Source of the DNA: Magnetospirillum sp. SS-4
GTDB taxonomy: Bacteria; Pseudomonadota; Alphaproteobacteria; Rhodospirillales; Magnetospirillaceae
NCBI RefSeq assembly: GCF_902729425.1
Contig: NZ_CACVCH010000054.1
Span: forward strand, 1-64,000
Direction: 5' to 3'
Length of the DNA stretch: 64,000 bases
Made by a program: the position numbers and the translations under genes. Each line of letters starts with the position of its first letter. The stretch's first letter is position 1. Shown piece after piece: positions 29,166 to 45,378 of the stretch. The notes below the pieces were generated by a model that saw only the letters and a list, made by a program, of their open reading frames with translations, made no database searches and was not told where the DNA came from.

Positions 29166-30611
29166 CTACGGATTGCGGGTCAGATAGTAGCGGCGGCCAT
29201 TGGTGAGGGGATTGGAATTGTCCGAACTGGAGAAATGGACGGTGTTGCCGGCATCGATATCGGCATAGCCCCACAGTCCGCGTCCCTGGGACGCAGTGTC
29301 CGCCTCGATCGCGCCGCCGGCCGACAAGATGGTCCCGTCCTCGACCAGAGCATATTCCGATCGGCGGATGCCGATGGGAAGAGTGCCCCGATACGCGTGT
29401 CCCTCCACATGCAAGATCATGCTCAGCGGAATGGGATCGCGGTCAAAGACCATGCCGTCATCGCCATCGGGGGTGCCGTGGGCGTAAGCCACCGCGGCGC
29501 GGGTCTGTCCGGTCGCCGTCTGGATGCAGATGGCGCAGGCCGGTTGGGCGAGCCGGGCCGTGCTCTCGTGCCGCAGGCTGGCGCGCAGGGCCTTGATATT
29601 GTTGCCGAACCAGAAGTCAGCAAAATTTTCCACGGTGCCCAGCATATCGAACGGGGTCATCTGGGACCAGCAGCATACCGTCATCTGCCCATCGACCCCG
29701 ATATCCAGCCCCATATGGGGCGCGCAGCACAAATTGTCGGGGTGGGCCGCCGCATGGTCCTTGGACACCGGATAGAGGAAATGGCTGAGGGTGGCTGCGC
29801 CCTTTGGGCCGGGAGGCGGGCGATGTTGGGGCAGTTGTCCCGGATAGACAACTTCATCGCTCAGATAAACCCGCATGCGGCTGTTGATGGCGCCAAGTTG
29901 CTTCAGGACTGGAGCCATCGCCGCAGCGAGTTGCTCCTTGCTCACCACCGCTTCCGTCCCGAAGGTAAAGGCCTGGTAAAGCCTGATATTGGCGAAATCG
30001 ATGCCGACCTCGTGGGCCCATAACAGCAGATCGCCGACGGAATCCAGATTGCTGGAAGAGATGGTGGGTGAAATCTGGACGGCAAGGCGGCTGGGGTCAC
30101 GCCGGGCCAGGAGATCCCGCACGCCCCTATCCACATCGCTCCATTGGCCGTTGCGGCGCAGTTCCTCGAACAGCGTCCCCGTGGCGTCAATGGACATGGA
30201 GACGGTGCCGTAAGTCTCGCAGAGCAAAGCGATCTTGCGGTCGTCCAATCGGGTGGCGTTCGTCTGAACGAACAGCTTGCATTTGTGTTGCCGGATCGCC
30301 AGCAGGATGTCTTCGAAATAGGGATAAATCAGCGGTTCGCCCCAGCTGTTCAGGGCGATTTCCGTGGTGAACGGCAGCACCACGTCGATGACGTTCTGAA
30401 GGGTCTCTTTCGACATATAGCGGCGTGGCGTTCGACCGAGCTGAAGCCAGTTCTGCGACGGGCAGATCTTGCAAAGAAGGTTGCAGGCATAGCTGAGGGA
30501 CAGATTGAGATAGGGCGGCGGCGGGATCTTTTCTCCGCCTCGGGCCAGCAGAAACTCGCCCTGCGGATGCAGTCGCCACAAATCCTGATGGCTGGAGAAT
30601 TCCTTAGGCAT
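29166..30611 (-). CDS. Radical SAM/SPASM protein with C-terminal YSHW-type module
   Basis: 481 residues. CNLLCKIC near residue 45 is the radical SAM cluster motif and LNSWGEPLIYP the GGEP equivalent; the SPASM-like region has HMGLDIGVDGQMTVCCW and CAIC. The last about 85 residues are a diverged copy of the shared module (SEYALVEDG, HFSSSDNSNP, TNGRRYYL), at the C-terminus instead of the N-terminus, with WGYAD in place of YSHW. ATG 30611 has GAGGGG about 5 bases upstream. It is preceded by a 70-bp repeat with a strong hairpin (30684-30752). Confidence 0.85.
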   Translation of the reverse strand: MPKEFSSHQDLWRLHPQGEFLLARGGEKIPPPPYLNLSLSYACNLLCKICPSQNWLQLGRTPRRYMSKETLQNVIDVVLPFTTEIALNSWGEPLIYPYFEDILLAIRQHKCKLFVQTNATRLDDRKIALLCETYGTVSMSIDATGTLFEELRRNGQWSDVDRGVRDLLARRDPSRLAVQISPTISSSNLDSVGDLLLWAHEVGIDFANIRLYQAFTFGTEAVVSKEQLAAAMAPVLKQLGAINSRMRVYLSDEVVYPGQLPQHRPPPGPKGAATLSHFLYPVSKDHAAAHPDNLCCAPHMGLDIGVDGQMTVCCWSQMTPFDMLGTVENFADFWFGNNIKALRASLRHESTARLAQPACAICIQTATGQTRAAVAYAHGTPDGDDGMVFDRDPIPLSMILHVEGHAYRGTLPIGIRRSEYALVEDGTILSAGGAIEADTASQGRGLWGYADIDAGNTVHFSSSDNSNPLTNGRRYYLTRNP

Positions 30612-30683
30612 TATGCCCCTCTTCGATTCGACCGTTCTGGCCAACTTGAAGGTCATCATAGCGCATGCGGCCTGACCCGAGTA

Positions 30684-30752
30684 GAAAAAACCTTACATTT
30701 GCGTCCCTCGCAAATGTAAGGTTTTTTCCACGAATTCAATTTATTAGCGGGC
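30684..30752 (-). repeat. 70-bp repeat, copy 1, with a 20-bp perfect hairpin
   Basis: Arms at 30684-30703 and 30709-30728 are perfect complements (20 bp, 5-nt loop), with A6 and T6 at the outer ends, so it looks like a terminator in both directions. Right-hand flank CCACGAATTC and the following 20 bases match copy 2 at 40061-40130. It lies 73 bases before the minus-strand radical SAM start, so it may be leader control, a boundary terminator or a small mobile repeat. Confidence 0.7.
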
Positions 30753-30966
30753 AATGCGCGACCGCGACCGGATCCGCTGCGGATTCCGACACGTTCCGGC
30801 CACCCATTCCGATTTGATTCCGGCCACTGATTCCGATCGCGTTCCGGCCACCCATTCCGATCCGGTTCCGGCCACCTATTCCGATCGCGATCCGGCCACC
30901 CTTTTGGTTGAGGTGCCGGTTTCCGATCATCCGTGGCGGCGATTACTATCACTGAGGAGCACGACG

Positions 30967-31161
30967 ATGCTGTCCCACCCCACACTGGAAACCCTCCACG
31001 CCCTCGGTCTGCATGGTTGCGCCAAGGGGTTCAAGGAAATGGAGGCCAGTCCGGCCGCCGCCTCCCTGACCCACGCAGAGTGGCTGGCACTGATCCTCGA
31101 CCACGAGGTGACGTATCGTGGCCAGAAGCGTTTTGAAGCCCGCGCCGGGCGCGCCAAGCTG
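30967..31161 (+). pseudogene. istB: Outer IS21 istB, 5' part
   Basis: Starts MLSHPTLETLHALGLHG with GAGGAG 7-12 bases upstream and continues to YRGQKRFEARAGRAKL, the N-terminal domain of one IstB subgroup. The reading then enters the inserted element. The ATPase part continues at 33069-33607. The gene is therefore interrupted by about 1.9 kb. Confidence 0.82.
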
Positions 31162-31463
31162 GCGTTGCGCTTGGCGTCGAGGAAGGCGCCGGTCGCCAGC
31201 TCACGGACCAAGCCCTGGTCGACCGGCGTCTCGGCAAAGACGAAGCTGTCGAGGTCCTTCAAGACCGGAAACTTGGCGCAGCGCATGCGATAGCTGATCG
31301 ACTTAGCCTGGCGATGGACCCGTTCGGCGCGGATCAGGCTGGCGAGGAGCGGATAGATTTCGTCCCGCCGGACCAGTCCCTTCCCGGCGATCTCATCGAA
31401 GCTGGCGCGCATGCCATAGAGCTTGAGTTCGCTCATGGCCTCCAGAATATCCTGGCGATCCAT
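31161..31463 (-). pseudogene. istB: Inner IS21 istB, 5' fragment
   Basis: Starts MDRQDILEAMSELKLYGM and runs to FLDAKRNA, where the Walker A region (GGTGTGKT in intact homologues) should follow. It enters host istB sequence instead, read on the wrong strand. The ORF continues to 30927 as nonsense. Its ATG overlaps the istA stop (TAATG). Confidence 0.82.
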
Positions 31464-32947
31464 TAGGCGACCCTCCGGATGCTGTCGTAGCGACCGCAGT
31501 CGGCCACGGGTTCGATCTTCAGTCGCAGAGCGTCGGGGGTGATGACGCTGGGCATCGCTGGCGGCTGGTTACGCCGGGCGAGAATGCTCAGGATCACATC
31601 GCCATTGGCTATTCCGGCGGCTAAGGCTTCGGCGCAGGCCATCTCGACGGCAGGAAGCCCATGGTCGGGGACGGCACCGAGCACCTTGACGAATTGTCGG
31701 TCGGCGTCCGGGTGATGCTCCAATTTTTCGCGCACCTGCGCCAAGCCGGGGGGAAGCTCCCAGTCCTTGAAGGGCGCGCCGTTGCGCAAGGCACCCGGCT
31801 TGCGCACCAGGACCGGGAGATAATGCCACGGGTCGTAAATGACCTGGTCGCGGCGGAAACTGCGGGCATGATCGGCCACCACCGTATCGTCGAAGAGCAC
31901 CACGATGCGGTCGGCATGGGAGCGAACCAGAACCATCCGCCCGGCGGCACCGGCATCGACGCTATAGCGGTTGTGATCGGCGGGAATCAGGCAGGTGGTG
32001 GTCGCCCGCACCGCTTTCTCGACGAAGCCATCGAAGGGCGCGCGTAGCTCCATCAAGCTGGACCGCTCGTCATTGAACACCTCCCACACCGTCCGATCCT
32101 TGAACTCGGGATGCCTGGTCCGCTTGGCATAGGCGACGCACTGGTCTTCCAGCCAAGCATTCAACTCGGCCATACTGGTCACTCGTGGCTTGGGCCGGAA
32201 CAGTTGATCGCGAAGATTGCCCACCTGATTCTCGACCTGCCCTTTCTCCCAGCCTGCGGCCGGACTACAGGCCACCGGCTCGATCAGATGATGGGAGCAC
32301 ATCTGCAGGAACCGGCGGTTATATTGCCGAGCCTTGCCAAGGAAGATGGTCTCGACCGCCGTTTTCATATTGTCGTAGATACCGCGCCGACAGACCCCGC
32401 CGTAGAAGACGAACGCCTTGTCATGGGCGTCGAACACCAACTCCTGAGTCTCGCGGAAATAGACCCGGACGAACGGCATGCGGCTATGCGCCAGCCGCAT
32501 ATGGGCTGCCTTGACCGTCAGCGGCACGCCCTGGAACGAGATAGTCTCGTGGCTCCAATCAAACTGATAGGCCTCCCCAGGCGCGAAGCTCATCGGCACG
32601 AAAGCCTTGGTGGGAACCCGGGCCTGCTCGTCCCGCCAGCCTTTGACGAAACGATGCACGCTGTCGTGGGCACCGTCATAACCCTGACCACGCAACTCCT
32701 CGAAGAGCCGCTGGGTGGAGCGCCGCTCCCTTCTTGGCAGCTTGGCCTCGGCCTCCAAAATCTTGGTCAAAGACACCACCCATTCACCGAGCTTAGGAGA
32801 CGGCTGCACATCCCTGGCGTATTTGAACTCGGTCTCGCCGCTACGCACCACCTTGCGCACCGTCCCCCGAGAGACTCGGAGGTCTCGGCAAATCTCCTTG
32901 ATTGCCCGATGCTCGTCGAAAAATGCGCGCCGAATTTGTCCGATCAT
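31463..32947 (-). CDS. istA: IS21-family transposase IstA
   Basis: 494 residues from the ATG at 32947 (GTG at 32962 also possible). The N-terminal HTH is AIKEICRDLRVSRGTVRKVV. The rve/DDE core is GEAYQFDWSHE, YDNMKTAV and GWEKGQVENQVGNLR (final Glu). The C-terminal beta-barrel region with HNRYSVDAGAAGR is present. It appears intact, but the element lacks a full istB and one end, so transposition on its own is unlikely. Confidence 0.9.
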   Translation of the reverse strand: MIGQIRRAFFDEHRAIKEICRDLRVSRGTVRKVVRSGETEFKYARDVQPSPKLGEWVVSLTKILEAEAKLPRRERRSTQRLFEELRGQGYDGAHDSVHRFVKGWRDEQARVPTKAFVPMSFAPGEAYQFDWSHETISFQGVPLTVKAAHMRLAHSRMPFVRVYFRETQELVFDAHDKAFVFYGGVCRRGIYDNMKTAVETIFLGKARQYNRRFLQMCSHHLIEPVACSPAAGWEKGQVENQVGNLRDQLFRPKPRVTSMAELNAWLEDQCVAYAKRTRHPEFKDRTVWEVFNDERSSLMELRAPFDGFVEKAVRATTTCLIPADHNRYSVDAGAAGRMVLVRSHADRIVVLFDDTVVADHARSFRRDQVIYDPWHYLPVLVRKPGALRNGAPFKDWELPPGLAQVREKLEHHPDADRQFVKVLGAVPDHGLPAVEMACAEALAAGIANGDVILSILARRNQPPAMPSVITPDALRLKIEPVADCGRYDSIRRVA

Positions 32948-33068
32948 ATCCACGTCAATCACTCCCCACCGGTCCTTCCTCGAGAGCCTCAACGGCCAAA
33001 AGGAAGGACACTGACACAACATCAGAGGGGGTCAGAATTGGACGCGAAAATCTCCCCTCAGGGGGTCA

Positions 33069-33607
33069 CTATTGCTCGCGATTTCACATACCGGGCCTTG
33101 CGTGGCCTCGACCGAGCCCTCTTCCTCAAGCTGGGCACCTGCCAATGGATACGTGATCACCGCCATGTGATCCTGTGCGGCCCCACCGGCATCGGCAAAA
33201 GCTGGCTGGCCTGCGCACTCGGGCACAAGGCATGCCGCGAGGACATCTCCGTCCTCTACCAGCGGGTGCCGCGTCTCTTCGCGGCCCTCGACCTGGCTCG
33301 CGGCGACGGCCGCTACGCCAAACTTCTGGCCAGCCTTGCCAGACCAGATTTGCTGATCCTCGACGACTGGGGACCACAGGTGATGTCCGCCGACCACCGC
33401 CGCGATCTGATGGAAATCGTCGAGGACCGCTACGGTCGCGGCTCCCTGCTCATCACCAGCCAAGTCCCGGTCAACCGGTGGCATGAGATCGTCGGCGATC
33501 CTACCTTGGCCGACGCAATCCTCGACCGGATCGTCCATGCCGCTTATCGCATCGACCTCGATGGCGAATCCATGCGCAAGCCTCAGGCCGGGGAGGAGTT
33601 GACGTAA
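33069..33607 (+). pseudogene. istB: Outer IS21 istB, 3' part (AAA+ ATPase)
   Basis: From ARDFTYRALRGLDRALF through the Walker A motif CGPTGIGKSWLACALGHKA, the Walker B motif LLILDDWG, sensor LLITSQVPVNRW and DAILDRIVHAAYRI to a normal end. It pairs with the N-terminal part at 30967-31161; a few residues at the joint are missing. The long ORF reading through from 32111 is antisense to istA and not a real N-terminus. Confidence 0.85.
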
Positions 33608-33622
33608 CCGTCCGAGGGGCAA

Positions 33623-33732
33623 GCGGTCGTCCCCGCTTACCACAGGCCCCACCCACACGCACCCTCCGCCAGCTTCGTGACGAGCGCTGCGGGTGCGCGT
33701 GGGTCCCTCCCGTGGAAAGCGGGGACGACCGC
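33623..33732. other. Large inverted repeat in the 3' non-coding part of the IS21 element
   Basis: GCGGTCGTCCCCGCTT (33623-33638) is perfectly complementary to 33717-33732. Inside lie further complementary C- and G-rich segments (about 33648-33666 and 33689-33708), so the whole 110 bases could fold as one long hairpin. It begins 15 bases after the istB stop, so it could be a terminator or guard against read-through. The rest of 33608-34006 holds only the IS end repeats. Confidence 0.55.
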
Positions 33733-34006
33733 ACCCAAACATCACAACCTTGACCTGAAACCCCTCGCCATGAGATGACCGTCATAGACCTGCTGGGCAG
33801 GCACCCTCCGACCGGCCGAAATCATATCGGTACAGATGGCCGGAAACGGATCGGAATGGGTGGCCGGATTGGAATCGGAATCCCCGGCCGGATAAATCGG
33901 AATCCGCAATCCGCCGCTGGAATATCCTTGCGGACTGCGGATGCCCAGGGTTTCTATAGTGAGCTGGCGTTCCTTGGCGCCAGGGCAATAGCAGCAAGGC
34001 AATTCC

Positions 34007-34576
34007 ATGGTCGAGTTGGTGAGTTTTCTTGGCAGCAAGGTCCGCCTGCGCCCCTTGCGGCGAGAGGATGGGGCGTTGACCGCCGCATGGCGCAACGATC
34101 CGGCCATCCGCGACTGTCAGCTGGGCCATCGCTTTCCCGTGACGGCCGAGATGGAGGCCGCCTGGTTCGATTCCCGGCTTAACGACCGCTCCGGCGGTGC
34201 CTTTATCCTGGCGATAGAAGATCTTGCCGATGACGCCTTCGTCGGATATGCCCATCTCCGGGATATCGACTGGATCGGACGGACGGCAGAATTCGGGATC
34301 TCTATCGGGGCCAAGGATCGTCAGGGCCGGGGCCTTGGCCGGGAGAGCCTGGACATCATGGTGTGTCACGGCTTTACCGTCCTCAATCTGAACCGCATCT
34401 GGCTGCGCGCGGCGGCGTTCAATGACCGGGCGATCGCACTGTTCAGATCCGCCGGGTTCTCCCGCGAAGGCGTCATGCGCCAGCACGCCTATGTGGGGGG
34501 CCAGTATTACGATGTGGTCCTCATGGGGCTGATGCGGGACGAACACCGAGAGGGCGCGATCACAAACTCCGGGTGA
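34007..34576 (+). CDS. GNAT-family acetyltransferase (RimJ/PseH-like)
   Basis: 189 residues. FGISIGAKDRQGRGLGRESLDIM contains the acetyl-CoA motif R-x-x-G-x-G near residue 108, and LNRIWLRAAAFNDRAIALFRSAGF is the conserved motif B. Sugar N-acetyltransferases such as PseH and ribosomal RimJ types share this layout. In this cluster N-acylation of an aminotransferase product is the most likely job (inference). The IS21 element was inserted about 100 bases upstream, perhaps separating it from its promoter. The 3' end overlaps the convergent methyltransferase by 17 bases. Confidence 0.82.
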   Translation: MVELVSFLGSKVRLRPLRREDGALTAAWRNDPAIRDCQLGHRFPVTAEMEAAWFDSRLNDRSGGAFILAIEDLADDAFVGYAHLRDIDWIGRTAEFGISIGAKDRQGRGLGRESLDIMVCHGFTVLNLNRIWLRAAAFNDRAIALFRSAGFSREGVMRQHAYVGGQYYDVVLMGLMRDEHREGAITNSG

Positions 34577-35975
34577 CGACCTGTCCCACCCAGCCATGGT
34601 CGGCATCGTGCCATCCGATGACCTGGATGATCCCCTTGACGCCCTGGGCCGCCAGTGCGGCAAGGAAGTCCTCGGCCTCATCGGCGGGCACCAGGGCGAT
34701 GAGGCCGTCTTCGGCTAACCGGCTCTGGTCGTGCGGGCCGATCACCATCACCCCCCGCATGCGAAACACCTGCCCCCGACGCCCCGCCGGGTCGTAGATT
34801 CCAGCCGGCTGGACGCCGTGAAAGCGAAGAGCGGCCCCCAGAATGCTGGCTTCGCTAGTGCCTGGGATCGGTGTCCGATGGCCGTTGTGAATGTAGGGCC
34901 GCCGTCCCGCCAATGCCAGGGCGGCGATCAGGTCATGGACCTGGGACTCGAACCGTCGGTGGGCCTGGGGCAGCGCCTCGAACAGCGCACTGGGAGAGTA
35001 AGCCGTTTCGGGATCGCGCAGCATCATCTCGACCCCGCAGCGAACCGCGTAGGAGGCGCCACAGGTTAGGCAGACCATCTCGGTCGGTCTCCGCCGGAAC
35101 TCAGAGCGACCACAAGACAGGCAGGTCGGCACAGGAACCGGCAGATCCGGGCTTAGGCTCCCCCGTTTGCGGAACACAATGAAATCGTGGAAGCCGTCAG
35201 CGGGTCCCTGGGGTTGGGCAAGTTCTTTTTCGACCATCCGGGCCAGCGTATTCAGCCGGAGACGATAATGTTCGGCGAAGGCGGGATCGCCCAATTGTCC
35301 CCGAACATGATCGGCATTGAACCCATGCGGGCTGAAGACGGAATGAAGCAGGACCGATGCCTCGAATGCCGAGCTGAAGAATTTCCGTTGTCGAAGAATT
35401 TCCCCTCTCTGATCGGCGATCAGTTTGGCGAAATACCCGTCCGCATGCATTTCCGCGGTGGGGACGCTGACCTTCAACCAGGCATACAGATCCGGGTATT
35501 CATTCCATTCTGCGGTGGGGACGAATATGATTCCGACCCCGCCGGGGGTCAGGACGCGGAATATCTCGGCGAAGGTCTTTTCGAGATCCTGCCCATAGAA
35601 CATTGTTTCGGAAGATAGAATTGTCGCGAAACTGGAATTTGGGAAAGGAAGATCGGTCATGTCCAGGCCGATCAGGTTATTATAGTGGTCGAATCGCGGC
35701 TCCACCTCCAAGCCACAGGACTCTGCGGTAGCCCCCATGGGCATGTCGCCCCCGAAGTCGATATTGGGCTTATCCCGCAGCATGAACCAGGATGCGGCGC
35801 CACAGCCGATTCCCAATTCAAGGGACGGAGAGGCCAAATTCAGATCCTTCACCAATGCGTGATGAAACAGTTCAAGGCAGAAGCGGAACGGAACGCAGTG
35901 AATGAAGTGGTCTCTCAAATTGTAGGATATGTAATCCGCCGATTTCCGCACGTCATGAGCATAACCCCGATCCAT
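34560..35975 (-). CDS. SAM methyltransferase with zinc ribbon and C-terminal Rossmann-like domain
   Basis: 471 residues. The class I core has SLELGIGCGAASWFML near 50 and a FPNSSFATILSSETMFY motif near 113. A zinc ribbon (CLSCGRSEF and CLTCGASYAV, residues about 285-310) follows, then an alpha/beta region with IHNGHRTPIPGTSEASILGAAL and GVMVIGPHDQSRL. It has no YSHW module. It is last in a minus-strand run of seven genes (44159 to 34560). It probably modifies a sugar; substrate unknown. Confidence 0.8.
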   Translation of the reverse strand: MDRGYAHDVRKSADYISYNLRDHFIHCVPFRFCLELFHHALVKDLNLASPSLELGIGCGAASWFMLRDKPNIDFGGDMPMGATAESCGLEVEPRFDHYNNLIGLDMTDLPFPNSSFATILSSETMFYGQDLEKTFAEIFRVLTPGGVGIIFVPTAEWNEYPDLYAWLKVSVPTAEMHADGYFAKLIADQRGEILRQRKFFSSAFEASVLLHSVFSPHGFNADHVRGQLGDPAFAEHYRLRLNTLARMVEKELAQPQGPADGFHDFIVFRKRGSLSPDLPVPVPTCLSCGRSEFRRRPTEMVCLTCGASYAVRCGVEMMLRDPETAYSPSALFEALPQAHRRFESQVHDLIAALALAGRRPYIHNGHRTPIPGTSEASILGAALRFHGVQPAGIYDPAGRRGQVFRMRGVMVIGPHDQSRLAEDGLIALVPADEAEDFLAALAAQGVKGIIQVIGWHDADHGWVGQVVTRSL

Positions 35976-36008
35976 GACCTTGTCCCTTGTCCCTCATTGT
36001 TCTGGCGA

Positions 36009-37103
36009 TTATCCGCGTTTCTGAACCACGAAGATCCCTTGGGCGCAGGACAGGTCGTCCTGCTCCGCCGCCCTGAACCGGGAACTCGAGCACCGCAGCC
36101 GGGGCAGGAAGTCGTCGAGATACTCAGGCTCCACCGTCTTGATCACGTCGAAGCTTAGAATATCGAACCCTGCCGCCAGCCAGCATTGCGCCATGACCGA
36201 CGGAAGAACTCGATTGCCCCAGATGTAGTGGTATTCCTGGTTCTCGCGGTCATATGCCCCGTCGTCGAGGAGCAGGAATTCCAAGGGTCGGGTGCTGTCG
36301 CGATGGTCGCAGAAATCGACGAGATGAACTCCCATCGTCCCGGACCGCGAGACTCTCGCCAATTGCAGGAAGGCTAGATCGGGGGCATTCAAATGTTCCA
36401 ATGTCGCGTGTGAGCAGTGCATATGGATCCGGTCGGTCAGGTCCTCGGGCAGGGATTCCGCCAGCGTCCCCGTCCAGATGATGCCTGCGGCCTCGTAGCT
36501 TGTCGCGGCAGCGATTCTGGCCAGGACGGCATCGTCGGTGGCAAGCTCTGACTGGCGCAGGGAAACGCCCAGTCCGCGAAGATAGGGCTGGTGCCAGTCA
36601 GGATTCCAGGGGCCAGGCTGACGATCCACCGCCACCACCTCGGCCCCCAACCCCGCCAAGGTAAGGACCGTATCCAGATAGGCGCCCGGTCCTATCTCCA
36701 TCACCGTCCGCCCGCTCAGGCCGGCGGCCCCTCCCGGCAGGCGGCCGAGCAAGTCCAGGATGGCGGGCAGCTTTCGCCGGGAGCGTTGTTGCAAATAGGT
36801 GTCCAGGTCCCAGCGGGCCGTATATGTGCGGCCGTTCGTGTTGGGGTCGCTATTGTCCGAAGTGGAGAACCAGACGGAATCAAGCCAGTGAGAATACAGG
36901 CCGCCGCCTTGCATCCGGATCTGGGCATGAAGGGCGTGGGGACTTCCCACGGGCTGCCCATCCTCCAGCAAGACCAGGCGAGAACGATCAACGGCATCGC
37001 CGCTGTCACCGGATCGCAGGCCAGGCACCGGACAGCGCCAGCACCATCCTCCCTCATGAACGAAGCGGGGGGCGAGGATCCGATCATGGGACAGGGGGCT
37101 CAT
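36009..37103 (-). CDS. SAM methyltransferase with N-terminal YSHW module
   Basis: 364 residues. Module at about 20-95: GWCW, SRLVLLEDG, HALHAQIR, GLYSHW, WFSTSDNSDP, TNGRTY, among the best conserved copies. The methyltransferase core follows: VMEIGPGAYLDTVLTLAGL near 133, HATLEHLNAPDLAFL, and VDFCDHRDSTRPLEFLLLDD, which is nearly the same as the 42972 protein. The start overlaps the stop of the glycosyltransferase at 37100 (ATGA), so the pair is co-translated. It is likely to methylate the product of that glycosyltransferase, but this is inference from position. Confidence 0.84.
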   Translation of the reverse strand: MSPLSHDRILAPRFVHEGGWCWRCPVPGLRSGDSGDAVDRSRLVLLEDGQPVGSPHALHAQIRMQGGGLYSHWLDSVWFSTSDNSDPNTNGRTYTARWDLDTYLQQRSRRKLPAILDLLGRLPGGAAGLSGRTVMEIGPGAYLDTVLTLAGLGAEVVAVDRQPGPWNPDWHQPYLRGLGVSLRQSELATDDAVLARIAAATSYEAAGIIWTGTLAESLPEDLTDRIHMHCSHATLEHLNAPDLAFLQLARVSRSGTMGVHLVDFCDHRDSTRPLEFLLLDDGAYDRENQEYHYIWGNRVLPSVMAQCWLAAGFDILSFDVIKTVEPEYLDDFLPRLRCSSSRFRAAEQDDLSCAQGIFVVQKRG

Positions 37104-39055
37104 CCACCCCCTCCATTGGTCCGACGACGGCCATGATCGAGCATGATCCGTTCTAATGCCCGTGCACACAACGAGGGACTCTTTAGGTCCGCCACCGCCT
37201 TGGGGCCGGCTTTGCGCCAGACCAGCCGCGCACCGGCGTTGCGGATCAATTCCGTTAAGGCCTCGGCCAGCTTTTCCGGAACCCGGTCATGCCCCAGACC
37301 GGGGGGAAGAAGCTCCGCGGCGGGCGACCAGGTTCGCACATCCCAGGGGAAAAGATAGTCATCGCCGACCATCACCACCGGCAGCCCAAGGTTGAGGGCC
37401 TCGAACACCGTGTGGCCGCCGCCATAGGGCAGGGTGTCCAGATAGATGTCGCAGATGGCTAGGATATTGATGACGTCGTCGCGCCAGCCAAGGGGATGAA
37501 CGCGGGGCCAAAGATCGGGGGGTAGGTCATGGGATTCGGCCAGGGCGGCGAAGCGGACAGAATCGATACCGACCACGACCAAGCGGGCCTGGGGACACTG
37601 ACCCAATGCCGAGGCCACTAGATCCCAGTATTCACGGCTGTCGAATTTCATGGCCCTGCCAACGCTCGCCAGCACCACCTGGTCGGGATCAAGACCCAGT
37701 TCCGTGCGCGGAATGGTCCGGCTGGGCAGCGCGAACCGGTCGGACGAGATAAACGATGGCATGATCTCGGACGGACATAATCCGTCCATGGCCGGCCGCC
37801 GGGTGAAGTGGGCGGCCACATCGAGGAGGCGGCTGGTATAAAGCGGCGGCTCCCCCAATCCCAATCCCATCAGCAGGCGGGCCGGCCTCAGTGCGGTTAG
37901 CACGAAGGACAGGCCGCATTGGGACATGAGGACCAGGGCATCCAGGTCCAGTGCGGCGATGGATCTGGCCATCGTCACCGCATCGACGAAAAGCAGTCCC
38001 GCCGTCGCGTGATCCAGGAAATAAACCCCTAATCCAGCGGTTTCCAACTTTTCCAGCCATTGGGGAAAGAAAGGGTTGGTGGCAATAATGGTGTCCCGTT
38101 GGTGGATGGAGATAATCACCGGTGCAACCACCGCCGGATCGTGACGAATGGCCAGTTCCATGGCCAGATCGGTATGGTGGTGATAGGTACCCAACGCCTC
38201 GCCGCAGAGCAGATATCCGACCCGGGCCGGGCGCTGCGTCGCCGGATCGTGCTTTGGAAGATTCACCTTGAACCGGGACAGCAGGCGTCCAGCCGGCCCG
38301 GCCACAAACTCATCCTGGAATGGCAGGCTGTGGGTCCGGGGATACAGCTCGTAAATGAAGGTTTCGTAGTGCACCACCACATCCGTCATCCAGTCGGGAT
38401 CTCCGGCGGCTTCAGCGGCGGCAGCGGCGGTTCTGAACAGGCTGCGGGTCTCATCATCCCGCTTCGTCTCGCGGAGCCAGCACAGGATGGGAAGCCATAT
38501 TTCCACCCGGCGCAATCCCAATTCCCAGGCCCGCCATAGCTGCATGGCGCCACGGGGGGCGTCACCGGAATCCAGAAAGGCGTCCCCTAGGATGCGCAGG
38601 CCCCAGGCCCGCTCGTCGGGGCTGCCGCAGGCCAGAAGCCTCGATACCGCTTCGGCCGATACACCGGTTCCACGGCGGATATCCGCCGCCATGCCCTCCA
38701 GATTCCTGGCGAGACCGGCCTGCAGAACCGGCACCGGCCGGTCATCGGCCTCCCAACTCAGAGTATAGCGGCGACCGTTGCTTCGGGGGTCACTGTCATC
38801 GCTGGCGGAAAAATACAGGGTCGTTCCCCAATGTGAATAACGCCCCCGACCTTTTTGCCGGATGAGGTCGTGCAGCGAATGGCCAGGCCCCAGCCGCCTG
38901 CCGTTCTCGCAGACGACCAAGCGAGAGTGCTTCTGCCGCCACAGGTCGTCCCCCGCCTTGAAGGGTAGCCGACCTAGGACCCAGCAATGCCCCTGATCTT
39001 CCCTGATCGCGGCGGGGTCCACTGCAAGAACGGGCGGGGCTGGCGAGGACGGCAT
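37100..39055 (-). CDS. GT-B glycosyltransferase with N-terminal YSHW module (paralogue of 19256)
   Basis: 651 residues. Module: GHCW, SRLVVCENG, HSLHDLIR, GRYSHW, LYFSASDDSDP, SNGRRY. As in the 19256 protein, a helical region follows (AWGLRILGDAFLDSG, RGAMQLWRAWELG). The GT-B domain then has LPFQDEF, MDGLCPSEIMPSF, HPLGWRDDVINILAICDIYLDTLPYGGGHTVFEALNLG. The PYGGG loop supports an OGT-like sugar-nucleotide site. The two paralogues align along their whole length, so a block was duplicated within the cluster. The upstream radical SAM gene ends 12 bases away. Confidence 0.85.
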   Translation of the reverse strand: MPSSPAPPVLAVDPAAIREDQGHCWVLGRLPFKAGDDLWRQKHSRLVVCENGRRLGPGHSLHDLIRQKGRGRYSHWGTTLYFSASDDSDPRSNGRRYTLSWEADDRPVPVLQAGLARNLEGMAADIRRGTGVSAEAVSRLLACGSPDERAWGLRILGDAFLDSGDAPRGAMQLWRAWELGLRRVEIWLPILCWLRETKRDDETRSLFRTAAAAAEAAGDPDWMTDVVVHYETFIYELYPRTHSLPFQDEFVAGPAGRLLSRFKVNLPKHDPATQRPARVGYLLCGEALGTYHHHTDLAMELAIRHDPAVVAPVIISIHQRDTIIATNPFFPQWLEKLETAGLGVYFLDHATAGLLFVDAVTMARSIAALDLDALVLMSQCGLSFVLTALRPARLLMGLGLGEPPLYTSRLLDVAAHFTRRPAMDGLCPSEIMPSFISSDRFALPSRTIPRTELGLDPDQVVLASVGRAMKFDSREYWDLVASALGQCPQARLVVVGIDSVRFAALAESHDLPPDLWPRVHPLGWRDDVINILAICDIYLDTLPYGGGHTVFEALNLGLPVVMVGDDYLFPWDVRTWSPAAELLPPGLGHDRVPEKLAEALTELIRNAGARLVWRKAGPKAVADLKSPSLCARALERIMLDHGRRRTNGGGG

Positions 39056-39067
39056 GACGGGCCCTTT

Positions 39068-40042
39068 TCAACGGGGAGAGGACGAATCCGTCAGGTCGCG
39101 CATGGCCGTGGCATAGGTTGTTCCCTGATCGGGCCAGAGGGTCAGGGCCCAGTCGGGACAGGCGCCACAGAAGGGATGACCAGAGAAATCGTTGGTACAA
39201 TGGGCCCGGCGCAAGGCCGTCATAGCTTCGCCCTGCCACAATTTGGCAATGGTGGTATCTGCCAGAGATCCGAGGTTGCCGAGATTGCGCCAGTCCACCG
39301 GGCAGTAGCTCACCTGGCCGTCGGGCTTCACCAACACGCGCTCCCATGGATAGAGGCAGGGGCCACGCTGGGCCGGAGCCGATGCCCAAAGCGATTGGCT
39401 GACCTCGGGAAGTGTCCCTCCGGCCGAATGGCAGGGGCGGATGACCACGAAATCCGCCCCCTCTAATGTCCAGAACGCTTTGAACGCCTCGACCTCGTGG
39501 CGGTTGGCGGATTGAAGAACGAAGCTGACCATCACCTTGACCGGACGCCCGCAGGAGCGGACCATCCGGATAAGCCGCAATGTGTTGTCGCGAACCTGGG
39601 AATACGGGCCCCCGGCGCGAATCGAGCCATATGTGGCATCGGAATGCGCGTCGAGGCTGATGTCGAACACATCGACCCCCGCATCCACCAATGCCTTCGC
39701 CTTGTCCTCATCGATCAGCAGTCCGTTGCTGGTCAGGTTGACCGGTACGCCGCCATGGGTCGCGGCATAGGTCATCATCTCGATCAGATGGGGATGCAAA
39801 AGGGGCTCGCCCTCGCCGGTATAACGGATAAAGCGGCAGAGACCCTTGCCGTCGGTAGCGATCTGATCGATCAGAAGACGGTTCAACTGGGAGCCGAAAT
39901 GGCGTCTTTCCCGTCCCCTCGGCTTGGTCACCGTCTCATAGGGACAATGGGTGCATGCGAGGTTGCAGAACTCGGTCAAATCCACGTTGATCTGGGATGG
40001 GAATGCCCTGGACAGATGGGCGAAGAACTCTCCGTGCATCAT
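39068..40042 (-). CDS. Radical SAM/SPASM protein
   Basis: 324 residues. EFCNLACTHCPYE near residue 27 is the radical SAM motif, YTGEGEPLLHPH the GGE motif, and LTSNGLLI the third. SPASM-like end: VLVKPDGQVSYCPVDW and FCGACPDW. A strong GGAGG precedes two adjacent ATGs; the second (40039) has the better spacing, so the first residue is uncertain. The 97-base gap before it holds copy 2 of the 70-bp repeat. No YSHW module. Confidence 0.87.
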   Translation of the reverse strand: MMHGEFFAHLSRAFPSQINVDLTEFCNLACTHCPYETVTKPRGRERRHFGSQLNRLLIDQIATDGKGLCRFIRYTGEGEPLLHPHLIEMMTYAATHGGVPVNLTSNGLLIDEDKAKALVDAGVDVFDISLDAHSDATYGSIRAGGPYSQVRDNTLRLIRMVRSCGRPVKVMVSFVLQSANRHEVEAFKAFWTLEGADFVVIRPCHSAGGTLPEVSQSLWASAPAQRGPCLYPWERVLVKPDGQVSYCPVDWRNLGNLGSLADTTIAKLWQGEAMTALRRAHCTNDFSGHPFCGACPDWALTLWPDQGTTYATAMRDLTDSSSPR

Positions 40043-40060
40043 TCCTCCGTCACGCTAGTG

Positions 40061-40130
40061 GAAAAGGTCCGACATTTGCGCACTCGCAAAATTTTGATTT
40101 GTTTCCACGAATTCGATTCGTTGGTCGGCA
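40061..40130 (-). repeat. 70-bp repeat, copy 2
   Basis: Aligns without gaps over about 70 bases with 30684-30752: shared ACATTTGCG, then CTCGCAAA, then TTTCCACGAATTC and a GGCA end. The stem is weaker than in copy 1 (TTTGCG with CGCAAA), so conservation is not only of the hairpin. It fills the single large gap of an otherwise tightly packed minus-strand operon, 19 bases before a radical SAM start, as copy 1 also precedes a radical SAM gene. Confidence 0.65.
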
Positions 40131-40139
40131 GGTCTGCTC

Positions 40140-41315
40140 TCACGCGATTTCATCGAAAAGGGCATCCAGGCTCTGGCGGGCGTCATCCATGGTCATGGCG
40201 GCACCGATGGGCAGGGTGACGATCCGATCCGCCAATTCCTCAGTGACCGGCAGGCAGACCCCGGTATGATATAGCGGCATGCGGTGCAGCGGAACATAAT
40301 GGACCGAGAGTCCGATGCCCCGATTCCGAACCCGCCTCATGATGTCGTCGCGGCTTTTGCGCCGCAGGGCGGAGTCGGGCAGCACGGTGACGAACAGGTG
40401 GTGCGCATGATCCAAGCCGCCAAGCCCCGTCTGACACTTGAAGCCCCCCTTCTTTGCCAGTTCATCAAGGTAGAATCTGGCGATGGCGAGACGATGGGCG
40501 GCAAACTCGGCCTGGCGCCGCAATTGGACCCTGCCGATGGCAGCCTGAAGGTCGGTATAATTGAGCTTGAAGCCCAATTCATGCAGTTTCATCTGGCCGA
40601 CACTGCTTTCCGGGTGGCTGTAACGGCGCCAGGCATTGGTGGTCAGCGCGTGTTGCCTCAGCGAGGCCAGATGGTTGGCCGCGTCCGGGTCCGCCAGGGC
40701 GATGGCTCCTCCCTCACCGGTCGAGATGTTCTTGTTGGCATAAAAGCTGAAGCAGACCAGATTGCCGGAAGCGCCAACCCGCGCGCCATCGGGAGTGCGT
40801 GCCCCCAGGGCATGAGCAGCATCCTCGATCAGCACAATATGGGGCGGCAGCGCCCGGCGCAGCGTTGCCACATCCACTGCTAGGCCGCCGTAATGCACCA
40901 CGATCACGGCTTTGGTCCGATGGGTCACCCTGGCCAAAATCGTCTCGGGCGTAACACAGAAGCTGGCCCGATCCACATCGCAGAAAACCGGGGTTGCGCC
41001 CAGATACAAGGCCGCGTTGGCCGTGCTGCACCATGTCAGGGACGGGCAGATCACCTCGTCTCCCGGCCCGATTCCGTGGCTGAGCAGCGCCAGAAACAGC
41101 GCGCCGGTGCAAGACGAGACCGTGACCACTCGCGGCACGTCCAGCCAAGCCTCCAGTTCCGTCTCGAACTGGAGAGTTTGCGGCCCCATGCCGACCCATC
41201 CCGACCGAAGCACTGCGGTGACGGCTTCGATCTCCTCGTCTCCGAAGTGCGGCTGGCCGAAGGGCACCACCATTTTCGATGCTGTATCGGGCGGATGGCT
41301 TGGGTCTCGCGTCAT
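40140..41315 (-). CDS. DegT/DnrJ/EryC1-family PLP sugar aminotransferase
   Basis: 391 residues. PLP lysine K195 in FYANKNISTGEGG, IEDAAHALGA and CPSLTWCSTANAAL. The C-terminal IGLSVHYVPLH is typical of this family's sugar-nucleotide binding segment. The start overlaps the stop of the methyltransferase at 41312 (ATGA). With the 23333 dehydratase it may yield an amino-deoxy sugar; alternatively it acts on a different keto-sugar from the 28022 enzyme, since the two are only distantly alike. Confidence 0.9.
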   Translation of the reverse strand: MTRDPSHPPDTASKMVVPFGQPHFGDEEIEAVTAVLRSGWVGMGPQTLQFETELEAWLDVPRVVTVSSCTGALFLALLSHGIGPGDEVICPSLTWCSTANAALYLGATPVFCDVDRASFCVTPETILARVTHRTKAVIVVHYGGLAVDVATLRRALPPHIVLIEDAAHALGARTPDGARVGASGNLVCFSFYANKNISTGEGGAIALADPDAANHLASLRQHALTTNAWRRYSHPESSVGQMKLHELGFKLNYTDLQAAIGRVQLRRQAEFAAHRLAIARFYLDELAKKGGFKCQTGLGGLDHAHHLFVTVLPDSALRRKSRDDIMRRVRNRGIGLSVHYVPLHRMPLYHTGVCLPVTEELADRIVTLPIGAAMTMDDARQSLDALFDEIA

Positions 41316-42979
41316 CGCTCGCCCTCTTCCGTCTTGAGCGTGGCGATGAGGTGGGGCAGGAATGCCTTGATCTGCAAGGGACCGGAGTCCCCCGTTGTCC
41401 CTGCGAACAGGGATACGCCTCGTCGGAAGCAGGGGAGCGCCTTGCCCCCCAAACCGGCCCGCCGCAGCTGAGCGAGGTATCGGTTCTGGTCCTCGACGGA
41501 AGCGATCAGGTAGCCATCCACCTCCAGGGTGTCATCCAGCCACCCCATATCGCGCCCCCCCTGTCCCACCGGAGCGACCTCGACCCGTGAAACCTCGAAC
41601 AGCCCGCATTCCTGGATCAGCGCCAACAGCGCCGTCACCTCCGGTTCTGAACCGGAGACCGCAACCTTGCGGATACCGTCCCCGGCAAGGGCACGCAGAT
41701 CGGCAAGGGAACTCTCTTTCACTTTTGCCCGCAACGCCAGGATATGATCGCCATACCAATTCCGAGGAGCAGATCCTCCGACTCTTTCCGAGCGGCGCTT
41801 GCGACCAAAAACGCCGCGCATCTGGTTCGGCCTGGCAATGATGTCGGGGGCGACGTCCGAGACATAGTCGATAACATCGAAAACATCGACGAACTGATTG
41901 ACGTAATCGACAAATTGATCACGGCCAAGCCACAGATTCATCATGTTATTGGGGCCGAACATGTCCTCAAGATCGCGGATGGGAAATTGGCAATAAGCCT
42001 TCTGCTCGATAAACACGTTGCGTTCGATGTAGAAAACGCCCTCCTCGTTGAGGAGCTCGCAGATATGGGCCATGTCCCGGCGGTGGTTCTGGAACAGGTA
42101 ATCGACCCCACAGCAGGAAATCAACGAGAACGCGTTCTGGGGCAGCGTGGCATCATGGATATAGCTGGGGATCACCACATCGTCTCTACCGCTGCGTTTT
42201 ATCGCCGTGGCGACCGCAAGACTGGGCTCCAGAAGCACGGTCCGCATCTGGGGATAGAAGATGCGCAGAGTCTCGGCCAGCCAGCCCGGTCCGGCTCCCA
42301 CATCCAGGTAGAGCGCCCCCGGAGCAAGCGCCACGCGCGGCGCGATCTGGTCGGCAAGGCGCTGGAAGCGGTCCTGGAACAAAACGGGATCCCAGTTGCC
42401 CGGTAACTGGTAATGCGTCTGATTCAAGGTGGGAATGACGGGATTGCGAAAGACGGCCCCGCATCCCCTGCAAATGACGATGGTTTGGAACCGGCACACC
42501 GCGCAGCCGTCATATTCGCCATTGACGAACTCGCCGTGGAACGAGGGGAACAGCACCTCATGATCAAGGCCGAGGCAAACCGGACAACGGCAAAAGATGC
42601 TATCGACCTGCCCTTCGGACGGCTCGATGCGTCGACGGAATTGCCCCGCTTCGAAGACGCGATTCGGCTCCTTGCGCGCCAGATAGTCGCGGCCATTGGC
42701 GTTCGGATCGGAATTGTCGGACGATGAGAAGTGAATCTCCCGCCCCCAGTGGGAATAGCGACCGCCGCCCTGTGTCCGAATATGGGCGTGTGGAGCATGA
42801 GACTCGGCCAAGGGGCTGCCGTCTTCATACAGAATGACTGAGGACCGGTTCGGTTGTTCGGGGGTGTCGCCGCTTTCCAGCCCCGGCGACGTGGCAATCC
42901 AGTTGAAACCGCCGTCATGGTGGAACGGCCGCCGCAAGACGATCCCCCTTGCCGCTTGTTCGCCGCCGTGATCAGTCAT
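41312..42979 (-). CDS. Multidomain SAM methyltransferase with N-terminal YSHW module and zinc site
   Basis: 555 residues. The module has GFNW, SSVILYEDG, HAPHAHIR, GRYSHW, HFSSSDNSDP, NGRDY. A Cys-rich zinc segment follows (CRCPVC, CAVCRFQ, CRGCG, residues about 105-160), then a methyltransferase core (ALYLDVGAGPGWLAETL) and a C-terminal Rossmann-like part (IRKVAVSGSEPEV, VDGYLIASVEDQNRYL). Zinc domain, core and Rossmann tail in this order recall NDP-sugar C-methyltransferases (Methyltransf_13/14). The start overlaps the 42972 stop by 8 bases. Confidence 0.82.
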   Translation of the reverse strand: MTDHGGEQAARGIVLRRPFHHDGGFNWIATSPGLESGDTPEQPNRSSVILYEDGSPLAESHAPHAHIRTQGGGRYSHWGREIHFSSSDNSDPNANGRDYLARKEPNRVFEAGQFRRRIEPSEGQVDSIFCRCPVCLGLDHEVLFPSFHGEFVNGEYDGCAVCRFQTIVICRGCGAVFRNPVIPTLNQTHYQLPGNWDPVLFQDRFQRLADQIAPRVALAPGALYLDVGAGPGWLAETLRIFYPQMRTVLLEPSLAVATAIKRSGRDDVVIPSYIHDATLPQNAFSLISCCGVDYLFQNHRRDMAHICELLNEEGVFYIERNVFIEQKAYCQFPIRDLEDMFGPNNMMNLWLGRDQFVDYVNQFVDVFDVIDYVSDVAPDIIARPNQMRGVFGRKRRSERVGGSAPRNWYGDHILALRAKVKESSLADLRALAGDGIRKVAVSGSEPEVTALLALIQECGLFEVSRVEVAPVGQGGRDMGWLDDTLEVDGYLIASVEDQNRYLAQLRRAGLGGKALPCFRRGVSLFAGTTGDSGPLQIKAFLPHLIATLKTEEGER

Positions 42980-44159
42980 TGGCCGCGACCGTTCTGTCAC
43001 CGGGGGCCCTGGTCAGCACAAAAGTACCGATGCCGACTTCAAGTTCAGGTCGGGCGATGTCACGGAACCGGGTGCGCGATGTCCGAATCCTGGCGAGAAT
43101 ATCGTTCACATAAGCGCCATCATTGGCAAGAAAGGTCTCCGCAGCCACCACATGGAATCCGCCGCGTTCCAGCAATGCCTTGAGACGCGGCAAGGTTTGC
43201 CGGTTGCCGATGACATAGCGATAGTAGCCCTTGTTCTCCGCCTCGAAAGCCTCGTCATCCAGCAGCATGTATTCCAACGGACGCGAGGCGTCGCGGTGAT
43301 CCCGGAAGTCCACGATATGGATGCCGAGCGCTCCGGGCTTGCTGGCCTTGGCGAGCGCAGCCACTGTTGCCGCCATATCTTCCACATGCTCGAGAACAGC
43401 GGTCGAAAGAATGATATCGGCCTGACCATGAAGGAATTCAGGAATTTTTTCTACTGAGGCGTGGGTCAGACTCACGCACTCGCGAGTGTCATCGGAGCAC
43501 AAAGCCTCCTCGTTGATGAGGACGCCCTCCCGAGCAAGCTCACGCGCCAGGACTTGCATATAGGGGATATGCCAATCCTGGCTCCACTTCTGGGGGTAGG
43601 GGTCGAGCCCGATCACCCGCGCTCCCAGGGCCGCGAAGGCGTAAAGCGTTCCGGTGCCGCTGCCAGGTCCGAGCTCCAGGATTGTCCGTCCAGTCACGCC
43701 TTCGCCGCCATTTGGAATATGCGCCAGATATTGACGGACATGGATGGCGGCGAGGCGGGCATGCTGGGTGAAAAATCCATCCCAGTTCACCCGTGCGCCA
43801 TAGCGTCGGCCATTGGTGTTGGGGTTGGAATTGTCGCTGGCTGCAAACCAAAACCAGCTCTGCCAGTGAGAGTAGCGCCCGTTTCCCTTTGCACGGATAT
43901 CGTCGTGTCCGGCATGGGAGGTCTGCAGCGGGCGTCCGTCCTCGGACAGTTGGACCGGTGAATGCCGATTGCTGCCAGGAAAATCGCCAATGCCGAACAA
44001 CCCGGCCGCAGTCATCCAACAATATCCCCGATCAGCGATGAATGGGCGAGGCAGTTCGAATTCCTCGTCCGGGCAGGTCAGGGGAAGGCAGGAGAGATTG
44101 GCCCCGAAACAATCGCGGTCAAGAACGAGAGCAGGCGCGACCCGGCTTGAATTCAGCAT
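42972..44159 (-). CDS. SAM methyltransferase with N-terminal YSHW module
   Basis: 395 residues. The module at about 45-125 has GYCW, SPVQLSEDG, HAGHDDIR, GRYSHW, FWFAASDNSNP, NGRRY. Core: TILELGPGSGTGTLYAFAAL, LSTAVLEHVEDMAAT, VDFRDHRDASRPLEYMLLDD. It is a close paralogue of the 36009 enzyme. ATG 44159 is preferred to TTG 44168. It is the first gene of the minus-strand run. IS630 lies about 80 bases upstream and may have displaced the promoter. Confidence 0.84.
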   Translation of the reverse strand: MLNSSRVAPALVLDRDCFGANLSCLPLTCPDEEFELPRPFIADRGYCWMTAAGLFGIGDFPGSNRHSPVQLSEDGRPLQTSHAGHDDIRAKGNGRYSHWQSWFWFAASDNSNPNTNGRRYGARVNWDGFFTQHARLAAIHVRQYLAHIPNGGEGVTGRTILELGPGSGTGTLYAFAALGARVIGLDPYPQKWSQDWHIPYMQVLARELAREGVLINEEALCSDDTRECVSLTHASVEKIPEFLHGQADIILSTAVLEHVEDMAATVAALAKASKPGALGIHIVDFRDHRDASRPLEYMLLDDEAFEAENKGYYRYVIGNRQTLPRLKALLERGGFHVVAAETFLANDGAYVNDILARIRTSRTRFRDIARPELEVGIGTFVLTRAPGDRTVAAND

Positions 44160-44236
44160 GGGTGTCAACTCTTTCTAAGTTTTCCGGCAGCTTGCAGGCA
44201 AGCATCTTCGGCAACCATGATGATGGAAAACAGTTA

Positions 44237-45378
44237 TACCCCGTCTACGCCACGACCCGAAATTCGGCAGGGTTTATGACGCGAAAGTTGTCGGTTACGC
44301 TATCGCGAAGGGTGTTCCATTGGGCCGGGACTTCATCACGCAGGAAGCCAAGGACAGCTTGGCAGAAGCCCCGGTATGTCGCGTAGCATTGGTTGTGGGT
44401 GATGGCCTTGTGCATCGCGCCCCATAATCGCTCGATCGGTTTAAGATGCGGGCAATAGGTGGGGACGAAGTGCAGAACAATGCGGCGCCCCGGCTGTTTG
44501 AGCCATTCCCGCACCATCTTGGCGTGATGATAGGGGGCGTTGTCGAGGAAGACATGGATCCGCCGCATCGCTGGGTACATGGCCTCGATGCTGATCAGCA
44601 GTGCGATAGTGCTGACAGCATGGACGGTTAGCATGTCGATCATGCGGGTCTGGCCGGTCTCAAGATCGACAGCGCCGTGGATGTTGAGAAGGTCGCGTCC
44701 ACTGGTCTGCTCGACGGCGAGCTTGACCTCCTTGGGCGCCCAGCAGCCGATCAAGCGGACACCATGGGCCGGGTGGACTACATCGACAAAGAGGACCGCC
44801 TCGTTGGCGTCGAGCGAGTTCAGCAGCGCCTCATAGGCGGCGATATAGACCGCTTGCTTGGCTGGCGAAAGCTTGCGCGAGATCGTCTGCGGCTTGCGGT
44901 GCTCCAACCCCAGGCGGTTCAGTAGCTTGATCAGGCCGCCACGGGTCTCGTAAACGATGCCGAAGGTTTTCTCGATCCAGGCGCCGATCACCCGAGCCGA
45001 ATGCGGCAAGGTCTCGGTGACCCACGCCTTCAACTCATCCATTCGTGCCACGGTCAACTGGCCGACGCTGCCACCGCCTTTGAAGTCCGAGATCCCCTTC
45101 ACCCCGGTCTGATCGAACTCCCTGGGCCAGGTCCGCACCGTGTCGTCTTCGAGCAGCAGAAACTCGGCCACTTCTTCGCAACTCTTCCCGCGGCCCAGCA
45201 TCACCAGCGCGTTTGCCTGCCGCGCAACCCGGTGCTCTACCTTGGGCAGCCGCGCCAGGATCGTCAGGTCTCGCCGTTGCTCAGGGGGCAGGAAGTTGCC
45301 TTGGATCATTACGCCGATTTGAATCCTTCACGGATCAACACGCAAGCGCCTTTTCGGAACCTGACAGAGTCGGAGTAT
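44237..45378 (-). mobile_element. IS630-family element
   Basis: About 1.14 kb around an intact transposase. Ends are related inverted sequences: left TATACCCCGTCT at 44235, right (minus strand) TATACTCCGACT from 45379. The flanking TA agrees with IS630 insertion at TA. Exact ends are uncertain by a few bases. It sits exactly between the glycan cluster and the truncated prophage. Confidence 0.75.
44245..45309 (-). CDS. IS630-family transposase
   Basis: 354 residues. N-terminal HTH regions (KSCEEVAEFLLLEDDTV, and TRGGLIKLLNRLGL). DDE_3 core: VLFVDVVHPAHGVR (first Asp), HVFLDNAPYHHAK (second Asp) and YCPHLKPIERLW (final Glu). The ATG at 45309 begins MIQGNFLPPEQRR. The gene appears complete. IS630 moves as a single-gene element. 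Confidence 0.9.
   Translation of the reverse strand: MIQGNFLPPEQRRDLTILARLPKVEHRVARQANALVMLGRGKSCEEVAEFLLLEDDTVRTWPREFDQTGVKGISDFKGGGSVGQLTVARMDELKAWVTETLPHSARVIGAWIEKTFGIVYETRGGLIKLLNRLGLEHRKPQTISRKLSPAKQAVYIAAYEALLNSLDANEAVLFVDVVHPAHGVRLIGCWAPKEVKLAVEQTSGRDLLNIHGAVDLETGQTRMIDMLTVHAVSTIALLISIEAMYPAMRRIHVFLDNAPYHHAKMVREWLKQPGRRIVLHFVPTYCPHLKPIERLWGAMHKAITHNQCYATYRGFCQAVLGFLRDEVPAQWNTLRDSVTDNFRVINPAEFRVVA

Follow-up and report, generated by a model that had tools for sequence, protein, structure and literature searches.

Among the short repeats described in bacteria, RUP of pneumococcus, MITEPsy1 of Pseudomonas syringae and the REP/REPIN/BIME families offer the closest comparisons for an element that we analyzed in a 64,000-nucleotide stretch of Magnetospirillum sp. 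SS-4 (contig NZ_CACVCH010000054.1, positions 1 to 64,000; hereafter the window). According to the available text of two reports, RUP is 107 bp long and geneless, has TA ends, forms a stem-loop, and carries terminal inverted repeats (TIRs) resembling those of IS630-Spn1, an IS630 element that is suggested to mobilize it in trans (PMC2229807, PMC3049150); the element described here is similar in these respects. In the part of the second report available, the two TIRs of RUP pair with each other (PMC3049150), whereas in our element two hairpins arise because each TIR folds back on an internal inverted copy of itself. The two systems also differ in phylum and in the CTAG target found here, and the likeness drawn here is between their described features. 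The IS630 of Shigella and ISY100 are likewise linked to an IS630-family transposase and to TA insertion, but the element described here has no transposase gene. By the title of the 1991 work of Tenzen and Ohtsubo, IS630 reportedly prefers the TA in CTAG. For ISY100, the accessible text gives in vitro insertions as almost all at TA, with TA duplicated (PMC2170065). MITEPsy1 is a 100-nt miniature inverted-repeat transposable element (MITE) that similarly targets CTAG (or YTAA) and whose transposition was observed in vivo, but the text available describes it as thought to derive from the IS5-family ISPsy2 and not from IS630 (PMC3189936). The REP/REPIN/BIME elements, associated with the transposase RAYT, resemble our element in being short tagged palindromes that are mostly intergenic, as far as the available text describes them (PMC3733652); in contrast, the element described here was associated with RAYT on one contig only, inserted precisely at CTAG, and had IS630 TIRs. 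A description of this element family was not found in the open-access papers searched, which included work on repeats of Magnetospirillum and Telmatospirillum, and on these comparisons it appears to be an IS630-derived MITE, with RUP and IS630-Spn1 as its nearest known relatives in kind.

The preliminary description of the window had reported a 70-bp repeat preceding two minus-strand radical SAM genes, and had suggested a leader controlling these genes, a bidirectional terminator, or a small non-autonomous mobile element. We consider it very probable that both repeats (copies 1 and 2; table 1) are degenerate, truncated copies of a MITE whose ends are TIRs of the IS630 family (Tc1/mariner type). 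The suggestion of a mobile element agreed with what was observed in relatives, where the repeat occurs in many copies with CTAG borders, one filled/empty pair exists, and an IS630 transposon has matching ends. The repeat pair proved real and correctly placed, each copy being some bases longer leftward; the perfect 20-bp hairpin of copy 1 lay within a 23-bp stem (at 96%; -33.9 kcal/mol, z = -9.6 on the minus strand), and folding bore out the lack of a stable stem in copy 2 (z = -0.9 and -1.8). With copy 1 as query, BLAST against the 4.53-Mb genome of the window (130 contigs) returned copy 2 over 47 nt at 81% identity (E = 3.3e-4) and, besides copy 1 itself and its own palindrome, nothing else at E <= 10, so that no third copy was found. 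The shortness of this direct match favors a chance similarity of two AT-rich hairpins, to which we nevertheless assign virtually no probability: the 48-column local alignment of the two copies scored 47, compared with a maximum of 32 among 2000 block-shuffled pairs, and a hidden Markov model (HMM) trained on 24 copies from other genomes, and on neither of the window copies, recovered both of these (E = 2.5e-8 for copy 1 and 2.9e-7 for copy 2). The two copies have CCACGAATTC in common, which carries a private extra G; TTTCCACGAATTCNAT, which includes this G, was found at two places in the window's genome and was absent from the 16 other genus genomes. Because the private G is common to both, the copies probably belong to one sub-lineage, as judged from their sequences.

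A search of 17 genomes of the genus detected the repeat in one other genome (G016, five matches), and the flanks of these matches revealed that the unit is longer and has a CTAG close to each end. At E <= 0.01, the 124-nt consensus had matches in 28 of the 55 family genomes, among them that of the window; in some, the match was to the right part only. With a later majority consensus, E <= 1e-6 was reached in 27 of the 317 genomes searched across the order, every one of which carries the label of the window's family; this search scored only two candidates per genome, so that absence from it is weak evidence. A pattern scan of named species genomes returned 97 stretches, most of them from metagenome-assembled genomes (MAGs) labelled only Proteobacteria; the named carriers were Telmatospirillum siberiense, Magnetospirillum aberrantis, Magnetospirillum sp. 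UT-4, and Paramagnetospirillum marisnigri, and other carrier MAGs were labelled Phaeospirillum, Telmatospirillum, Rhodospirillaceae, or Rhodospirillales. One further carrier, a MAG labelled Stygiobacter (VBWB; L109, L131), stood apart from the other Magnetospirillum-like alphaproteobacterial labels, and its label may be wrong. The consensus had no match in the plasmid and phage collections; when 1.9 kb around copy 1 was searched against plasmids, the matches listed (10 of 62 records) hit the stretch at its IS21 end.

The intact unit was 119 bp long and consisted of two self-folding hairpins with a short linker between them and CTAG at both ends. From left to right it read CTAG, the left TIR folded on an inverted copy of itself (about 52 nt), the linker AATTCAATNNG, an inverted copy of the right TIR folded on the right TIR (about 54 nt), and CTAG; each of the two stems comprised 24 pairs. 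Conservation was highest over positions 53-76, which comprise CAC, the linker, and the first stem-2 arm (mean majority share 0.915); the remainder of stem 2 had shares of 0.82-0.90 and stem 1 of 0.78-0.80. Pairing was counted in 29 de-duplicated units, which stem from the 43 that belong to one length class out of 62 unique full-length copies, on a structure drawn by hand from one copy and against 500 shuffles that ignore relatedness. In these units, 88.4% of cells paired (shuffles, mean 80.5%, maximum 81.8%), and a double change was found in 29 of 48 pairs (shuffles, mean 13.9, maximum 21). A count of 25 units, omitting L110, L158, L107, and L139 with their deviating right ends or stems, had the same outcome as the count of all 29: none of 500 shuffles was as high, and slid structures paired in 33-45% of cells. 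A first alignment with column shifts in the hairpin arms was excluded from these counts. Template switching can correct quasi-palindromes and thereby perfect a hairpin without selection; the paired changes may reflect such correction, or selection on an RNA or on transposase binding.

The repeat family is mobile. In the MAG DX1.bin89 (JAJYTF; treated here as genome G023), the pattern scan returned 46 identical copies, each in a different flanking sequence and with CTAG at either border, a number that counts scan returns and not a whole-genome total, with some copies at contig ends and possibly counted twice. In addition, contig C58 of this MAG contained two copies of a RAYT gene region, 98.6% identical, one of which read CTAG-element-CTAG where the other had just one CTAG, an exact 119-bp insertion; the duplication was TA or CTAG, which a single pair cannot separate. 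The preliminary description had held that many copies at random positions would favor a mobile repeat over regulation, and this was the situation in the relatives, while the window's genome contained two copies only. What had appeared to be a regulatory repeat was resolved as mobile DNA, for which a likely mover can be named and both an empty site and a candidate for the parent transposon are available; the family is a compact example, in bacteria, of a burst of a Tc1/mariner-type MITE.

Transposase genes in five element-rich genomes included 6 matches to PF13358 (IS630-type) and 12 to PF01609. At one of the loci (L186 of DX1.bin89), CTAGTGG...CCACTAG ends lay 1158 bp apart and read CTAGTGGTAAAAATCTAACGGATG...CTCGGACCACTAG, with a 378-aa open reading frame (ORF) between them that scored 260.9 bits with the IS630 model NF033545 (cut-off 100). 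The ends of this unit agreed with those of the MAG's element at 21 of 27 positions on the left and 19 of 27 on the right, the shared CTAG included, and the agreement held without CTAG (shuffle p < 1e-5 on the left and 7e-5 on the right). Homologues of the L186 transposase were found in 15 of the 55 family genomes at E <= 1e-20. Among 17 homologue loci, chosen from 24 matches of which several were pieces of one element, 16 had CTAG near at least one end; 15 read CTAGTG (GTGG-, GTGC-, or GTGT-type) and one CTAGTT. Two genomes of the window's genus (G004 and G007) had an IS630 homologue with a GTGG-type end. Two other transposases were rejected as the mover. PF01609 (IS4/IS5-type) had no CTAGTGG/CCACTAG pair 400-4000 bp apart, outside elements, at any of its 12 loci, and RAYT (PF01797) had a clear element at only 2 of 30 loci, both on contig C58, where in one case the element has inserted within the RAYT gene. 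These observations also bear on whether the repeat is a REPIN- or BIME-type element moved by the RAYT (Y1) transposase, its GTGG-tagged hairpins resembling inverted REPs. GTGG does stand at both ends, followed by hairpins; the element lay within 1.5 kb of two of the three RAYT loci on contig C58, and a weak partial match was found near an IS200-type gene (L055, E = 0.05). Nevertheless, this origin is extremely improbable given the RAYT loci just described, the 26 matches in G016 (some being reverse matches of one palindromic copy), which had no PF01797 at E <= 0.001, and the existence of an IS630 unit with matching ends.

We return to IS630 as the probable source of the MITE ends. An IS630 transposase would bind both outer TIRs in trans and excise the element, which would then be pasted into the TA of a CTAG with duplication of TA. 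In the window's lineage, one insertion between an aminotransferase gene and a radical SAM gene would have produced copy 2 and another, upstream of a different radical SAM gene, copy 1; both would afterward have lost the right hairpin. Several observations weigh against this interpretation. Neither window copy is complete: the right hairpin, or right TIR with its CTAG border, was not detectable in either, the HMM matches stopping at position 75 of about 121, and the left border, intact in copy 2 (CTAGTGG at 40055), has decayed in copy 1 (CTAGTGG to CGAGTAG). The window copies fell short of E = 1e-6 with the later majority consensus. The TIRs of element and candidate parent were only about 70-78% identical, and at E <= 1e-20 no homologue of the L186 transposase was found in the window's genome (G000), or in G016 despite its many element matches. 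Moreover, one homologue locus (L207) had no nearby CTAG, and one end in G004 read CTAGTT. Finally, the comparison with G048, where the orthologous aminotransferase and radical SAM genes overlap by ATGA with no element between them, favors an insertion at copy 2 but was made at 55% protein identity of the radical SAM protein and does not provide a nucleotide-exact empty site for copy 2.

Other CTAG-related repeats and an additional IS630-family gene were encountered. At two loci of G016 (L015 and L018), the element was directly abutted by a different repeat, also bounded by CTAG, which reads CTAGAG...GGGAAACTCTAG and contains a GCTTCAGCTTCAAGCTGAAGC palindrome. A further repeat with GTGCAGTGA/TCACTGCAC-like palindromes adjoined element copies at loci L097, L116, L161, L167, and L169 in the MAGs DX1.bin89 and BP5.bin88; its ends resemble GTGC-type IS630 ends, and a strict pattern returned no short palindromic form of it. 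The window itself contains an IS630-family transposase gene at 44245-45309 (NF033545, 166.6 bits), which on reading by eye shows no GTGG ends, its ends being unlike those of the MITE.

We then considered the genomic context of the copies. Radical SAM genes (PF04055) were confirmed downstream of both window copies, and ORF coordinates confirmed that copy 2 fills the only large gap (40043-40139, 97 bp) of its minus-strand gene run (44168-34560), the other junctions being overlaps, 12 bp, and 33 bp. This arrangement, in which both copies precede radical SAM genes in like orientation, together with the very stable fold of copy 1, is what speaks for a cis-acting RNA leader, riboswitch-like or an attenuator, that co-regulates the two genes. 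However, none of 20 proteins flanking 13 other copies had a Radical_SAM match (the proteins were picked by hand from the ORFs nearest to 13 of 20 copies); therefore, the position of both window copies in front of radical SAM genes rests on two insertions in one cluster. The 20 copies elsewhere were in convergent (6), tandem (7), divergent (4), or unclear (3, one inside a called ORF) settings, as judged from ORFs called by a simple and rough rule of length and third-position GC content. In addition, copy 2 has no stable hairpin, the gene pair occurs without the element in G048, the family is mobile, and an Rfam scan of the window returned no match at the gathering threshold. A radical SAM homologue in G002 (55%) likewise had no element upstream and had a different neighbor. 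Thus, the leader suggested in the preliminary description was not upheld, and we regard it as very unlikely.

The CTAG borders of the MITE contain TAG, and the first base of the element is G and its last is C, so that its insertion rebuilds TAG on both sides. In DX1.bin89, frames of at least 250 codons were closed by the flanking TAG at 23 of 45 element sites, whereas this was so for 17 of the 123 remaining CTAG sites in those loci (p = 1.8e-6, one-sided Fisher test); the open frames are not proven genes. The contrast was 33 of 45 versus 55 of 123 at 100 codons (p = 8e-4) and 34 of 45 versus 77 of 123 at 60 codons (p = 0.08), and over all loci, DX1.bin89 included, it was 42 of 60 versus 104 of 270 at 100 codons. 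Other contexts gave 386 of 621 (ATAG), 349 of 518 (GTAG), 27 of 102 (TTAG), and 502 of 1160 (random positions) at 100 codons; these frames are partly without a real stop and not like for like, and since two of the values approach 33 of 45, the case rests on the longer thresholds. In the window, the CTAG of copy 2 follows the aminotransferase's own TGA stop and is not itself the stop, and that of copy 1 is lost. The bias toward amber stops could reflect either targeting or survival; if confirmed, it would explain both a low-damage spread and the gathering of hairpins at gene ends. In the available parts of the literature on MITEs or IS630 and stop codons, no such bias is reported. We tentatively propose, as a possibility that we consider rather unlikely, that the MITE is maintained as two co-varying, self-folded hairpins and settles on amber stops, which leaves the neighboring genes intact while they gain a hairpin immediately behind the stop, and that copy 1 is a domesticated terminator.

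The fate of copy 1 can also be taken by itself. As a MITE fossil, it might now serve, by exaptation, as a bidirectional transcription terminator or insulator, the second of the functions suggested at the outset. Its perfect 20-bp stem is flanked by an A-tract and a U-tract and was very stable on both strands (table 1), and compared with a G016 consensus made by eye it differs by two substitutions that are paired and lacks a bulged G, which makes it the more perfect of the two even though the right half of the element is gone. On the other hand, a single unpaired substitution in the left arm (GTGG to GTAG) breaks a pair, and the consensus terminator scan did not flag copy 1, flagged copy 2 on the plus strand only, and gave a total close to chance (13 versus 12.4 expected). 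With the IS21 insertion set aside, copy 1 would moreover lie between divergent genes (GNAT from 34007 and radical SAM from about 30611), and quasi-palindrome correction by template switching could have perfected its hairpin. We regard a terminator or insulator role of copy 1 as unlikely.

Table 1. Positions of the MITE copies and of surrounding features in the window.
Feature	Position	Strand	Description	Evidence
Copy 1	30677..30752	+	Degenerate left MITE part (hairpin 1 + linker)	BLAST 30677-30740; HMM positions 3-75
Copy 1, hairpin 1	30681..30731		23-nt arms, 5-nt loop, 20 bp perfect	z -9.6 and -10.5
Copy 2	40055..40129	+	Degenerate left MITE part, hairpin 1 decayed	HMM positions 1-75; BLAST; fold
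Radical SAM gene downstream of copy 1	29166..30611	-	Start picked by hand; longest ORF starts 30659	PF04055
Radical SAM/SPASM gene downstream of copy 2	39068..40042	-		PF04055, PF13186
DegT/DnrJ/EryC1 aminotransferase gene	40140..41315	-	Upstream of copy 2, same gene run	PF01041
IS21-family insertion	30778..33908		Adjoins copy 1; TG..CA ends, 6-bp target duplication ATCCGC	NF033546
GNAT acetyltransferase gene	34007..34576	+	Divergent neighbor of copy 1 if IS21 set aside	PF13302
Proteins with RYSHWG..FSSSDNSDPNTNGR.Y-like segment	29166-30659, 36009-37169, 37100-39055, 41312-43000, 42972-44168	-		By eye

The IS21-family insertion separates copy 1 from the GNAT gene. Its outer ends and target duplication are intact, and its interior looks chimeric: istA (31463-33022) and the istB start (30927-31463; PF01695) are both on the minus strand, and istB-like pieces were seen, by eye only, on the plus strand at about 30968-31190 and 33032-33607. 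A segment like RYSHWG..FSSSDNSDPNTNGR.Y recurred, as noted by eye, in five minus-strand proteins of the cluster: a radical SAM protein, two methyltransferases, one protein with glycosyltransferase matches below the cut-off, and one without a Pfam match. Four of the corresponding genes appeared as DNA repeat family D2. Finally, at 45675-46634 and 47221-48354, a gene for a phage tail tube protein (PF18906) adjoins one for a DUF4172/Fic protein, a pair that is perhaps a prophage remnant.

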